Shown in pieces: positions 8,051-12,669 of a DNA stretch of 64,000 nucleotides. Position 1 is the stretch's first letter. The number at the start of each line of letters is the position of its first letter. Below the pieces are notes generated by a model. The model saw only the letters and a program-made list of their open reading frames with translations, was not told the DNA's origin and did no database searches. This DNA comes from Prochlorococcus sp. AG-363-K07 (GTDB lineage Bacteria; Cyanobacteriota; Cyanobacteriia; PCC-6307; Cyanobiaceae): the NCBI GenBank assembly GCA_003280225.1, contig QCFO01000001.1:62001-126000 (forward strand), in the 5' to 3' direction. The translations under genes were made by a program, and so were the position numbers.

Positions 8051-8836
8051 TTAAAACAAAATAGGCATTGTGACATTGGCTGGTTTAGGTGAACAAGAGT
8101 CAACCTGATAATTCACGTAATTACCAATCATGATTATTGAAGGTGAGGCAAAATTAGCCTTTTGAACTTCCTCTACCAGATCGCATAAGGAAGCCTTCAA
8201 ATAACGCTGGCCAATGACAGTTCCCTGTTGTACTACAGCAGAGGATGTAGAGGGACTTAAACCACCAGCAATTAACTCACTAACTATGTAGTCAAGATTA
8301 TGTAGGCCCATATAGATGACCAACCCATCACATGCAATAGCAAGTGCTCTCCAATTAACTAAAGGACGACGTTTATCAATACCCTCATGACCAGTCACAA
8401 AAGTAATCGAGGAGCCTGCCATCCTATGAGTCACAGGTATCCCTACGTAAGCAGGTACAGCAATACCTGCCGTAATGCCAGGAACAACTTCTACTTTCAC
8501 ACCTCGGTGTTCCAAATAAGCAGCTTCCTCTGCCCCTCTACCAAACAAAAAAGGATCTCCGCCTTTAAGGCGAACAACCCTTGAATACTGCGCAGCAAGA
8601 TCAACTAAAACAGAATTCGTTTTGGACTGAGGAACAGAATGATGACCACGTCTCTTTCCAACAAATTGACAACGACAAGACTCAGACACTAATTCAAGTA
8701 ATTCCTGAGGCACCAATGAGTCATAAACCAGTGCATCACACTCTTGCAATAAGCGCTGAGCTTTAACTGTCAGCAAATCAGGATCTCCAGGTCCAGCTCC
8801 AACAAGATAGACAGTTCCATATTTAGCCTTCTTCAT
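8051..8836 (-). CDS. cobA: Uroporphyrinogen-III C-methyltransferase
   Basis: SAM-dependent methyltransferase that makes precorrin-2, the branch compound for siroheme and cobalamin. Siroheme is the cofactor of the nitrite reductase encoded just upstream on the other strand. Motifs in order are VYLVGAGPGDPDLLTVKA at the N-terminus, VGKRRGHHSVPQ, VVRLKGGDPFLFGRGAEE, PGITAGIAVPAYVGIPVTHR and VTGHEG. I place the start at ATG 8836 (261 residues). The frame continues to 8923, but those 29 residues precede the normal family N-terminus. The gene is divergent from the nitrite genes, and the space between carries an NtcA-type site. Confidence 0.93.
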   Translation of the reverse strand: MKKAKYGTVYLVGAGPGDPDLLTVKAQRLLQECDALVYDSLVPQELLELVSESCRCQFVGKRRGHHSVPQSKTNSVLVDLAAQYSRVVRLKGGDPFLFGRGAEEAAYLEHRGVKVEVVPGITAGIAVPAYVGIPVTHRMAGSSITFVTGHEGIDKRRPLVNWRALAIACDGLVIYMGLHNLDYIVSELIAGGLSPSTSSAVVQQGTVIGQRYLKASLCDLVEEVQKANFASPSIIMIGNYVNYQVDSCSPKPANVTMPILF

Positions 8837-9146
8837 GCCACACGCCTCAACATTGCAATGAAAGGAATCAGTAGATTGGAAACTGTACTTAAAAACAGGA
8901 AAGCTTGTTCTGCAATAATCCAAAAAAGACCTTGATCTCTAGTAATTCAAAAGAAAAAAATTTATATAAATATAAGGAATTGCTGCAAGACAACATTCTC
9001 ATGAACTGTATATATTGGCCAGCCAAGCAATTATTCAAGACTGTAGTTTCAGATACAGATCCGATGCAAATTTTGTATCATTAGCAACAACTGGTGACTC
9101 AATTGAATGATTTAGTTGGATTTAATCACTACGAGATAAGTAATTC
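8837..9146. promoter_or_regulatory. Divergent regulatory region between cobA and the 63-codon ORF
   Basis: About 310 bp without a confident gene. It contains the cobA upstream region on the minus strand (still open in the cobA frame to 8923) and a perfect NtcA-type palindrome at 9043-9056. A TATCAT sequence at 9076-9081 could serve as a -10 element for rightward transcription into the small ORF at 9147. I see no RNA gene. Confidence 0.5.
9043..9056 (+). promoter_or_regulatory. NtcA-binding site (GTA-N8-TAC), site 1
   Basis: The sequence GTAGTTTCAGATAC is a perfect match to GTA-N8-TAC, the core of sites for NtcA, the global nitrogen regulator of cyanobacteria. A TATCAT box begins 19 bases after its end. 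That is slightly closer than the roughly 22-base spacing of classical NtcA-activated promoters. It lies 90 bases before the start of the 63-codon ORF. The motif is seen directly; NtcA control is inferred from the known consensus and the nearby nitrite genes. Confidence 0.7.
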
Positions 9147-9338
9147 ATGAAGCATCAAAATAGAACACGGCGCAATCACGCGTATCAATATCAAAGAGAT
9201 TTCGTAAACCATCAACCGACTAGAAAGCAAAGGTTCCACAACGAATTTGAAAGAGACTTGTTTGCTATGAGACAAGTACTCAATATTATGCAGAAAGGCA
9301 CAATTAGATGGTTTGGCGAAGTAGGGCGTCAATACTAA
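9147..9338 (+). CDS. Small protein (63 aa) upstream of nirA, possibly NtcA-controlled
   Basis: An open frame of 63 residues, rich in Arg, Asn, Gln and Phe, with no membrane segment. The C-terminal half (ERDLFAMRQVLNIMQKGTI) looks like an amphipathic helix with regularly spaced Leu, Met and Ile. I do not recognise the family from sequence. It sits in front of nirA in the same direction, with its own NtcA-type site 90 bases upstream. This position resembles small NtcA-controlled proteins such as NirP1 of Synechocystis, which binds nitrite reductase, but I cannot align the two from memory. No clear Shine-Dalgarno sequence is visible. A similar-length frame on the opposite strand (9129-9332) is hydrophobic and less plausible. 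Confidence 0.55.
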   Translation: MKHQNRTRRNHAYQYQRDFVNHQPTRKQRFHNEFERDLFAMRQVLNIMQKGTIRWFGEVGRQY

Positions 9339-9376: not shown

Positions 9377-9390
9377 GTATAGAAAGCTAC
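9377..9390 (+). promoter_or_regulatory. nirA promoter: NtcA-binding site (GTA-N8-TAC), site 2
   Basis: The sequence GTATAGAAAGCTAC matches GTA-N8-TAC exactly. It is the distal of two such motifs in the 204-bp gap before nirA; their centres are 35 bp apart. Its left half overlaps the right arm of a short inverted repeat (9357-9380). Confidence 0.65.
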
Positions 9391-9411: not shown

Positions 9412-9425
9412 GTACAAATTGATAC
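9412..9425 (+). promoter_or_regulatory. nirA promoter: NtcA-binding site (GTA-N8-TAC), site 3, proximal to nirA
   Basis: The sequence GTACAAATTGATAC matches GTA-N8-TAC exactly. An AT-rich TATTGC element at 9444-9449 could be the -10 box, again slightly closer than the classical spacing. A half-conserved copy (GTA-N8-TAT) follows at 9433-9446. The nirA start is 117 bases downstream. Activation of nirA by NtcA in nitrogen limitation is well established in cyanobacteria. Confidence 0.75.
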
Positions 9426-9542: not shown

Positions 9543-11177
9543 ATGCCTACTTTAAGCACATCTAAGAACTACCTAGAAGGGAAAAAGATAAATAAAATTG
9601 AGAAAAATAAAGCTGAAAAAGATGGCCTAGCTGTCGGCCCGGAGATCGAAAAATTTGCTGCAATAGGCTGGGAGAAAGTAGACAAAACAGATTTAGAATT
9701 GCGACTTAAGTGGTATGGAATCTTCTGGCGACCAAAAACCCCAGGACAATTTATGTTACGTTTGAGAGTTCCAAATGGGGTTCTGAAATCTGATCAACTA
9801 GATATTATTGCATCAATTGTTGCAAGATATGGAGACAATGGAAGTTGCGATATAACTACCCGACAGAATATCCAACTCCGCGGAATCTTATTAAGTGATT
9901 TACCTGACATTCTTAAGAGATTAAATGAAGCAGGGATTAACACAATTCAATCAGGTTTTGATAATCCAAGAAATGTTACTGGAAACCCCCTGGCAGGTAT
10001 AGATCCTGAAGAGATTATAGATACAAGAGAATATACATATAAGCTACAAAAATTTCTGACGAATGACGGATATGGAAATCCAGAATTTTCTAACCTTCCT
10101 AGGAAATGGAATACAGCAGTTGCAGGCTCAAAAGATAATTTCCTGTTGCACAATGATATTATTTTTCACCCTGTAGAGCTTAATGGCAATATGGGTTTTG
10201 GTATTTGGTTAGGTGGTATCCTATCATCCCAAATGAATGCTTATGCTATTCCATTAGATGCTTGGATAGAAGCTGATCAGATCTGCAATCTAACGGGTTG
10301 TGTAATATCAATTTGGCGCGATAATGGCGAAAGGAATAAAAGGCCAAAAGGTAGATTTAGATTCTTCCTAGATGAAATAGGAATAGAGAATTTTAGATCT
10401 ATGGTGGAAGAAAAGTTTGGACCATTAAAACGGGATCCAGGTTCAAAATTTACGGACAAACCGAGATCTATTTATGGTATACATAATCAGAAACAACTTG
10501 ATAAGTATTATGCTGGATTACATGTACCTGTTGGACGCCTAACCTCTGAAGATCTTCAGGATTTAGCTGCAATTAGCAGAGATTATGGAAATGAAGAAAT
10601 TCGTCTAACTGAGGATCAGAATATAATAATCACTGGGATTGATAAAACTCAACTAGATGATTTTCAATTGAGACCGATACTGAAAAAATTCAAAATCAAA
10701 CCAAATACAATAGAAGCAGGCACAGTATCTTGCACAGGAAATACATATTGCAGTTTTGCACTCACAAATACAAAAGATCAAGCATTAAGATTATCCAAAG
10801 AGCTTGATAACGAGATTAAGCTTCCAAAAGAAATAAAAATACATTGGACTGGTTGTCCCAATAGCTGTGGTCAAGCCTATATGGGAGCCATAGGTTTAAC
10901 AGGTACTAAAGGAAAAAATTCAGATGGAAAAATGACGGAAGCGTACGATATAACTTTAGGAGGCTCCCAAGATTCTACGCAAAAAATTGGTAAATTACAA
11001 TATAAATCAATACCAACAGAAAACATTAAAGATATTCTAAAAACTATACTACTCGAAGAGTACTCAGCAATTCCCAAAATAAAAAGTAAGGAATCAAAGT
11101 CTGATTTAATATCAAGTTTAAAATCAACAGTCAAAAGATGGTTGAAAAAAGATACTTCAAGCAGCAATTCAACATAA
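9543..11177 (+). CDS. nirA: Ferredoxin-nitrite reductase
   Basis: Siroheme and 4Fe-4S enzyme that reduces nitrite to ammonium with six electrons from reduced ferredoxin. The order is typical: N-terminal NKIEKNKAEKDGLAV, a first ferrodoxin-like half with RLRVPNGVL and CDITTRQNIQLRGI, then a second half with the cluster cysteines in SCTGNTYCSFA and HWTGCPNSCGQAY (C-x5-C and C-x3-C). The KAEKDGL N-terminus and the overall order match nitrite rather than sulfite reductases. At 544 residues it is slightly long because of a Lys/Ser-rich tail. Two NtcA-type sites lie upstream, and the neighbours provide siroheme precursor (cobA) and nitrite uptake, so the function is well supported. Confidence 0.95.
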   Translation: MPTLSTSKNYLEGKKINKIEKNKAEKDGLAVGPEIEKFAAIGWEKVDKTDLELRLKWYGIFWRPKTPGQFMLRLRVPNGVLKSDQLDIIASIVARYGDNGSCDITTRQNIQLRGILLSDLPDILKRLNEAGINTIQSGFDNPRNVTGNPLAGIDPEEIIDTREYTYKLQKFLTNDGYGNPEFSNLPRKWNTAVAGSKDNFLLHNDIIFHPVELNGNMGFGIWLGGILSSQMNAYAIPLDAWIEADQICNLTGCVISIWRDNGERNKRPKGRFRFFLDEIGIENFRSMVEEKFGPLKRDPGSKFTDKPRSIYGIHNQKQLDKYYAGLHVPVGRLTSEDLQDLAAISRDYGNEEIRLTEDQNIIITGIDKTQLDDFQLRPILKKFKIKPNTIEAGTVSCTGNTYCSFALTNTKDQALRLSKELDNEIKLPKEIKIHWTGCPNSCGQAYMGAIGLTGTKGKNSDGKMTEAYDITLGGSQDSTQKIGKLQYKSIPTENIKDILKTILLEEYSAIPKIKSKESKSDLISSLKSTVKRWLKKDTSSSNST

Positions 11178-11389: not shown

Positions 11390-12301
11390 ATGGCTTCTAG
11401 TACTTCTCAAATGGACTATGTCCTACCAAATGAGCTTGTAGACGGCATGATTGCTGCGGGCGGCAAAAAATCAACAGTCAGTGTCAAAAACCTTCTAGTA
11501 CGCGGATTTTATTCCGGAGCAATTCTCGGATTAGCGACTTGCCTTGCAATTACCGTAGGTATTCAGTCTGGGATGCCATTCTTAGGTTCTGTAATTTTCC
11601 CATTTGGATTTGCAAGCATTGTTCTCTTTGGGATGGAACTAGTGACTGGCAACTTTGCACTACTACCAATGGCAACATGGGCTGGGAAAAGTTCTTGGCG
11701 CGCAACATTCCGAAATTGGAGTTGGGTCTGGATAGGCAACTTTCTAGGTACAGCCCTCGTAGCTGTTCTATTAGCATTAAGTCTCACAAGTGCTGGAACC
11801 GTTGAACCTCTTTCAGCCGCGGATGGAGGAAAGGGTTGGGCAGTAGTAGCGGCAAAGATTATTGCGATAAATAAAATGAACGTAATTACCAAGTATGAGG
11901 TATTAGGCACTACTGGGTTCTTATTAGCTGTTCTTAGAGGAATAATTGCGAACTGGTTGGTTTGTTTAGGTGTAACTATGGCACTAGTCAGCAAAAGTGT
12001 TCCTGGCAAAATACTTGCATGCTGGCTACCAATCACTGCATTCCAAACAATGGGCATGGAACATATTGTCGTCAATATGTTCCTACATACAACAGGGCCT
12101 TTGCTAGGTTCTGGAGTGGCTTTTAGTAAAGTTATTTTTTGGAATTTTCTACCAGTAACTTTAGGAAATATATTAGGAGGAATGGTATTTATTGGAATGC
12201 TTTTCTATAGCACTCATAGAACAAAAATGAGCAATGTTCTACCTACTATCCATGATGAAAAACTAGAAAGAGAACTTGCAGCAGAGCTTGGAGCTAGGTA
12301 A
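11390..12301 (+). CDS. focA: Formate/nitrite transporter family channel (probable nitrite transporter)
   Basis: Integral membrane protein of the FNT family, 303 residues with six predicted hydrophobic segments. Recognisable features are the N-terminal DYVLPNELVDGMIAAGGKK, FGFASIVLFGMELVTGNFALLP, NWLVCLGVTMA, the segment GMEHIVVNMFL and NFLPVTLGNILGGMVF near the end. FNT proteins carry formate, nitrite or related monovalent anions. Placement directly behind nirA points to nitrite uptake. It is followed by a strong hairpin that would end the nirA transcript. Confidence 0.92.
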   Translation: MASSTSQMDYVLPNELVDGMIAAGGKKSTVSVKNLLVRGFYSGAILGLATCLAITVGIQSGMPFLGSVIFPFGFASIVLFGMELVTGNFALLPMATWAGKSSWRATFRNWSWVWIGNFLGTALVAVLLALSLTSAGTVEPLSAADGGKGWAVVAAKIIAINKMNVITKYEVLGTTGFLLAVLRGIIANWLVCLGVTMALVSKSVPGKILACWLPITAFQTMGMEHIVVNMFLHTTGPLLGSGVAFSKVIFWNFLPVTLGNILGGMVFIGMLFYSTHRTKMSNVLPTIHDEKLERELAAELGAR

Positions 12302-12317
12302 AATTTATAGAACTTAA

Positions 12318-12361
12318 TACTTAAGAAAGCTCATGCAAATGTGAATGAGCTTTCTTAAGTA
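12318..12361. terminator. Bidirectional hairpin terminator
   Basis: A perfect 17-bp inverted repeat (arms 12318-12334 and 12345-12361, starting TACTTAAGAAAG) encloses a 10-base loop. It lies 16 bases after the transporter stop and 11 bases before the stop of the convergent 98-codon gene. The position fits a terminator for both transcripts. Confidence 0.8.
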
Positions 12362-12372
12362 AATTAAATGCT

Positions 12373-12669
12373 CTAAGAAATTCTTTCAAACGCCAAATCA
12401 GCATCTAACATTGCTTGATAATCATCATGAAATGAACAACTATACATTAAATTAATTACTCTATCTAAATCAATACCTCGATCAAGAACATCTTGCCATA
12501 ACCTATTCGTCAATTCTGGATCATCAAGTTCAAATTGAGCATGCACTAATTCTCTAACAAGCAAAAAAATAGTTTGTCGATCATTCCTCATCCTTGCTTC
12601 GGCAAAATCCAATGAAAGATCACTAGCAAACTTGTCTATTTGTGATCTAGCAGTAATCTTCTTAACCAT
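12373..12669 (-). CDS. Conserved hypothetical protein, 98 aa
   Basis: A small soluble protein beginning MVKKITARSQIDKFASDL, acidic in its C-terminal half, mostly helical by composition and with no membrane segment. I do not recognise a domain. It is convergent with the nitrite transporter and divergent from the HEAT-like gene, so it has its own promoter in the 117-bp gap. Its place in the nitrite locus may be meaningful or accidental. Codon use resembles the neighbours, and the frame is clean from ATG to TAA. Confidence 0.7.
   Translation of the reverse strand: MVKKITARSQIDKFASDLSLDFAEARMRNDRQTIFLLVRELVHAQFELDDPELTNRLWQDVLDRGIDLDRVINLMYSCSFHDDYQAMLDADLAFERIS

Follow-up and report, generated by a model that had tools for sequence, protein, structure and literature searches.

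NirP1 of Synechocystis is a protein of 81 aa with a pI of 4.59 and four predicted beta strands in its conserved part; members of its family, mostly 76-86 aa long, have an invariant Cys and three invariant Trp within the last ~50 residues (PMC10907346). It binds nitrite reductase and raises the excretion of nitrite made from nitrate, and it has been reported to be absent from Prochlorococcus (PMC10907346). PirN, a small protein regulator of nitrate assimilation in Synechocystis, has a DUF1830 domain and is also reported to be absent from Prochlorococcus (PMC13205821). On the uptake side, Maeda et al. took an S. elongatus mutant that cannot transport nitrite and expressed in it nitM alone, the gene called focA here (PMC4390861). 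Full-length NitM of CC9311 and of MIT9313 was inactive in S. elongatus and was active without its last 21 residues, and the CC9605 NitM, which naturally lacks the tail, was active (PMC4390861). Maeda et al. (2015) inferred that a mechanism in the native cells activates NitM through the tail (PMC4390861). In E. coli, the FNT channel FocA is gated by PflB, a cytoplasmic protein encoded in the same operon (PMC11841067). Two other genes of the nirA-focA cassette have been named: RS12335 of SynWH7803, which encodes a short protein and for which co-transcription with nirA and nitM and strong induction under nitrogen limitation are reported (PMC9430850), and nirX, which is counted in the Prochlorococcus cassette and, as far as these sources describe it, accompanies nirA in Prochlorococcus generally (PMC6370341, PMC10119275).

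The window, i.e., the whole 64,000-nt stretch analysed here, contains a short reading frame, ORF63, which lies 204 nt upstream of nirA on the same strand. The gene order is cobA (minus strand), ORF63, nirA, sORF2 and focA, with the following features:

8051-8923, minus strand: cobA-type uroporphyrin-III methyltransferase (siroheme branch), the divergent neighbour of ORF63
9043-9056, plus strand: perfect NtcA consensus GTAGTTTCAGATAC (GTA-N8-TAC), 90 nt before the ORF63 ATG and off the position conserved in relatives
9075-9088, plus strand: NtcA-type site GTATCATTAGCAAC with one mismatch, 58 nt before the ORF63 ATG; this site is conserved in relatives
9147-9338, plus strand: ORF63, ATG start, 63 codons and TAA; a disordered, charged N-terminus followed by a conserved C-terminal helix
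9234-9335, plus strand: conserved core of ORF63, residues 30-63
9377-9390, plus strand: perfect NtcA consensus GTATAGAAAGCTAC, between ORF63 and nirA
9412-9425, plus strand: perfect NtcA consensus GTACAAATTGATAC, between ORF63 and nirA
9543-11177, plus strand: nirA, ferredoxin-nitrite reductase (NCBIfam ferredoxin--nitrite reductase, E 1.9e-251)
11079-11174, plus strand: C-terminal extension of NirA, ~25 residues
11208-11351, plus strand: sORF2, a conserved 47-aa protein between nirA and focA, in the position of RS12335 of SynWH7803
11390-12301, plus strand: focA (nitM), FNT nitrite transporter; its last 21 codons form a conserved charged tail
12236-12298, plus strand: the FocA C-terminal tail HDEKLERELAAELGAR, nearly invariant, diverged in genera g9 and g50

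A conserved 98-aa protein without a Pfam match is encoded after focA (12373-12669, minus strand); in other relatives its gene immediately precedes ORF63 and has the same orientation. The long AT-rich hairpin at 12304-12377, between focA and the 98-aa gene, surfaced as a chance miRNA match and is probably a shared terminator.

ORF63 is a genuine gene. The original prediction of a 63-codon frame with its own NtcA-type site, on the same strand before nirA, is borne out by the coordinates, the homologues and the pattern of selection. A genome search found homologues in ~140 of 400 genomes of the same family, so that related nirA loci do carry the gene. In 27 independent near pairs, the conserved core has a pN/pS of 0.118, which indicates strong purifying selection, and its changes at codon positions 1, 2 and 3 number 41, 21 and 145, i.e., the substitutions follow the reading frame; constraint on the N-terminus is weak (pN/pS 0.51). 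Of the 68 sequences tested, all keep this frame free of stops; the other two forward frames are interrupted in nearly every one, and the antisense frames have stops in 26 to 62, so no conserved frame on the opposite strand accounts for the locus. ORF63 is short, and its 5' part overlaps a divergent cbiX in many relatives, as would suit a chance open frame or the shadow of conservation on the other strand. However, the low core pN/pS, the dominance of third-position changes, the uniformly open frame, the antisense stops and the absence of cbiX from this place in the window rule out a chance or antisense frame and make a non-gene reading vanishingly improbable.

Across 92 unique sequences, the C-terminal core has ten almost invariant positions (D37, A40, M41, V44, M47, G51, G57, E58, G60 and R61 in the window numbering), and the C-terminus is an almost fixed GE[IV]GRQY, with GRQY as the usual end of the protein. 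AlphaFold2 with 50 sequences predicted no strand and two helices, one at residues 33-62 and a low-confidence one at 14-20; the confidence of the whole model is modest (mean pLDDT 71). The window protein has a pI of 11.2, no Cys and one Trp. Across the family, the median pI is 11.3 and the commonest length 64 aa, and many members have a very basic N-terminus; that of genus g5 is of mixed charge. Cys occurs in 7 of the 92 unique members, and 90 of them have one or two Trp. No significant match was found in Pfam, NCBIfam, PHROGs, PDB sequences or PDB folds, and a literature search returned no description of the protein, which is apparently undescribed so far. Rfam at the gathering threshold gave no structured RNA at the locus in the window and 16 relatives, and the idea of a glutamine-type riboswitch with a downstream peptide was dropped for this lack of a match. 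A phage origin was also discarded: viral contigs held no copy of ORF63, and phages gave one chance match.

The original prediction had further put ORF63 forward as a candidate NirP1-like regulator of nitrite reductase. What stands of it is a small protein with an NtcA-type site, linked to nirA and, like NirP1, to the nitrite step of nitrogen assimilation. Membership in the NirP1 family is not supported. NirP1 is acidic, with its Cys, three Trp and predicted beta structure, whereas ORF63 is basic, has no Cys and one Trp in the window, is predicted to be helical and is tied to focA; we therefore reject homology on the residues, charge and fold by which NirP1 was described. A search of 96 genomes for the published promoter repeat of NirP1 gave no recognisable nirP1. 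The NtcA promoter feature of NirP1 is shared by ORF63 and is not specific to NirP1.

A site of the form GTA-N8-[A/C/G/T]AC ends 40-75 nt before the ORF63 ATG in 81 of 91 loci. In many relatives (loci L071-L095), cobA and ORF63 have a divergent cbiX between them, which overlaps the 5' region of ORF63. Because this overlap could itself conserve the upstream letters, the 26 cbiX-free loci were taken separately. The site was found in 25 of them, 48-66 nt before the ATG, where shuffled sequences would give 19% (p 2e-17), and these loci include a freshwater genus of different gene order. The spacing is therefore conserved independently of the neighbouring gene. NtcA sites are also common in the interval between ORF63 and nirA (55 of 91 loci), and since nirA has its own perfect sites in the window, the site of ORF63 is a separate one. 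The conserved position and spacing suggest that NtcA may control ORF63 in vivo through this putative site.

A first reading associated ORF63 with nirA, and it was overturned by the nirA counts and then by the focA counts. Among 400 genomes, nirA was found in 275 and focA in 154. ORF63 accompanied nirA in 138 genomes and was missing from the other 137 with nirA. For ORF63 and focA, 136 genomes had both, 5 ORF63 only, 18 focA only and 241 neither; within the nirA-containing genomes, the respective numbers were 136, 2, 16 and 121. Thus, the presence of ORF63 tracks focA more tightly than nirA. Three of the five ORF63-only genomes have it on contigs that end before focA would be visible. The other two are G288, which has neither nirA nor focA and an in-frame TGA inside ORF63 (a pseudogene), and G349, in which nearly all of nirA and focA is deleted and ORF63 is left as an orphan. 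G049, scored as focA only, carries a divergent ORF63 on another contig; ORF63 is also present in G071 and G221.

Individual loci show the same tie. In G112 and G162, nirA is intact, focA is missing, and a broken ORF63 lies directly upstream of nirA. In the freshwater genus g31, the order is nirA-cbiX-cobA-ORF63-sORF2-focA, with ORF63 downstream of nirA and together with focA. The high-light Prochlorococcus G344 (L103) has the full low-light type cassette of cobA, ORF63, nirA, sORF2 and focA, which suggests that the unit was transferred as a whole; at eight other high-light nirA loci, ORF63, sORF2 and focA are all absent. The low-light 'type II' nirA loci of G161, G184, G265 and G289 have neither ORF63 nor focA. 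G309 (L104/L042) has two nirA genes of different types, and ORF63 is found only at the one adjoining focA. There are also genomes with focA and no ORF63, namely the 10 genomes of genus g9 and four others (G023, G076, G083 and G128); in these four, the FocA tail is intact and no ORF63 was detectable. The FocA tail of g9 is diverged in both loci examined. G215 has lost the tail and sORF2, and its ORF63 is intact.

Because the genomes are related, these raw counts overstate the evidence, and a tree-aware test had too few independent events for significance. On the NirA tree, focA requires 6 changes and ORF63 7; on well-supported branches, three of four focA differences are matched by ORF63 and none is opposed (p 0.25). 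The association of ORF63 with focA is consistent across lineages and is not statistically proven once relatedness is counted.

Two further elements of the cassette are also tied to focA. Of the loci examined, most with focA and none without it carry sORF2, which has two DxFSR...N motifs. The NirA C-terminal extension is present in most focA-containing loci and in 0 of 20 without focA among the loci examined. In some genomes the extension shares a DPFSRFMNWF-type motif with sORF2, and the NirA of G049 (L050) ends in DPFSRFMNAISG. sORF2, in the position of RS12335, resembles ORF63 as a short protein of the same cassette that is tied to focA, but it has another sequence and sits between nirA and focA. 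sORF2 and the extension could therefore be competing or cooperating activator candidates. nirX and ORF63 are probably different genes by their distribution, since ORF63 is missing from the high-light nirA loci without focA, where nirX, as far as the two papers that count it in the cassette describe it, would be expected with nirA. PirN is a small regulator as well; ORF63 differs from it in having no Pfam match and in occurring in Prochlorococcus.

No NarB-type nitrate reductase was detectable in 53 of the 75 ORF63-containing genomes tested, some of which are incomplete; among those of good quality, 24 of 44 were without it. The window genome (G000, 93.7% complete) yielded no NarB-like molybdopterin oxidoreductase, which makes it probable that the organism can use nitrite and cannot use nitrate. 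Because the enzyme went undetected in many ORF63-containing genomes, the nitrite there would come from outside the cell.

We tentatively propose that ORF63 is an NtcA-controlled small protein that works with FocA (NitM) in nitrite uptake by picocyanobacteria, a reading we consider quite possible though short of probable. Support for the general role comes from the shared distribution of ORF63 and focA, the broken copies in genomes without focA, the arrangements in g31 and G344, the constant spacing of the promoter site, the outside origin expected for nitrite in genomes with no detectable NarB-type reductase, and the published inhibition of NitM by its tail. ORF63 is a small gene tied to focA with an NtcA-type site, and an activator has been inferred for the NitM tail; it is therefore a candidate for that activator. 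Under nitrogen limitation, ORF63 would be made via NtcA. Its C-terminal helix, preceded by the disordered charged N-terminus, would probably dock on a protein partner, and ORF63 may thereby relieve the inhibition exerted by FocA's own C-terminal tail. FocA would then open, and nitrite would be admitted only when the cell can use it. Such gating has a precedent in the E. coli FocA-PflB pair, in which an FNT channel is likewise gated by a protein of its own operon; however, PflB is a large enzyme acting on the N-terminal helix of FocA, while ORF63 is tiny and would act via the C-terminal tail (PMC11841067). Physical binding of ORF63 to FocA would be expected on this proposal. The specific mode, activation by relief of tail inhibition, is much less certain than the general role and must be called doubtful. 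Equally doubtful is the fuller version, in which ORF63 is a reversible NitM activator that opens the channel via the tail and may form a transporter-enzyme complex together with sORF2 and the NirA tail. Evidence against the proposal comes from g9 and the four other genomes with focA and no ORF63, and from G215, where ORF63 persists beside a tail-less FocA.

The nearest alternative to the tail-relief mode is that ORF63 holds NirA and FocA together as a scaffold or docking factor, with nitrite reduced on entry and the NirA extension and sORF2 in the same assembly. The confinement of the extension to focA-containing loci among those examined, its resemblance to sORF2 and the grouping of sORF2, ORF63 and focA in one cassette all speak for this, but ORF63 also occurs without the extension (g31, G309, G054 and L086) and without sORF2 (G309 and G054), and we regard a scaffold as unlikely. 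It is more unlikely still that ORF63 resembles NirP1 in role and is unrelated to it in origin, binding nitrite reductase directly and tuning its activity. In its favour, ORF63 stands immediately upstream of nirA in most genomes and has an NtcA-type site, and enzyme inhibitors are known among short helical proteins. However, most genomes with nirA and no focA lack ORF63 or carry a broken copy, in g31 it is not beside nirA, and the lack of a detectable nitrate reductase in 53 of 75 genomes makes the NirP1 role fit poorly. A physiological report by Berube et al. points the same way: nitrite is released by MIT0917 (type II NirA, no FocA) and SB (no FocA) and is not released by MIT0915 (type I NirA, FocA) and two Synechococcus (PMC10470740). 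If the loci studied here represent those strains, those that release nitrite would be the ones that lack ORF63, which is opposite to a NirP1-like effect; the comparison is confounded with focA and the NirA type and provides no evidence of causation.

A role in expression of the cassette, as a regulatory peptide, an NtcA partner or a basic-tailed nucleic-acid-binding protein, would suit the very basic N-terminus of many members (family median pI 11.3) and the place of the gene upstream of nirA. We hold it to be the least likely of these functional readings, and a rather improbable one, since the N-terminus is weakly constrained and of mixed charge in g5, nirA has its own NtcA sites, ORF63 lies downstream of nirA in g31, and no Rfam element was found at the locus.

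ORF63 adds a small protein family that is missing from the family libraries searched. Nitrite ranks among the main nitrogen sources of low-light Prochlorococcus, and its release and uptake shape exchange between strains. As a conserved small gene whose retention and loss go with those of focA, ORF63 is a concrete candidate for the activator inferred for NitM. If ORF63 is indeed that activator, it would answer a question stated in the 2015 work (PMC4390861).
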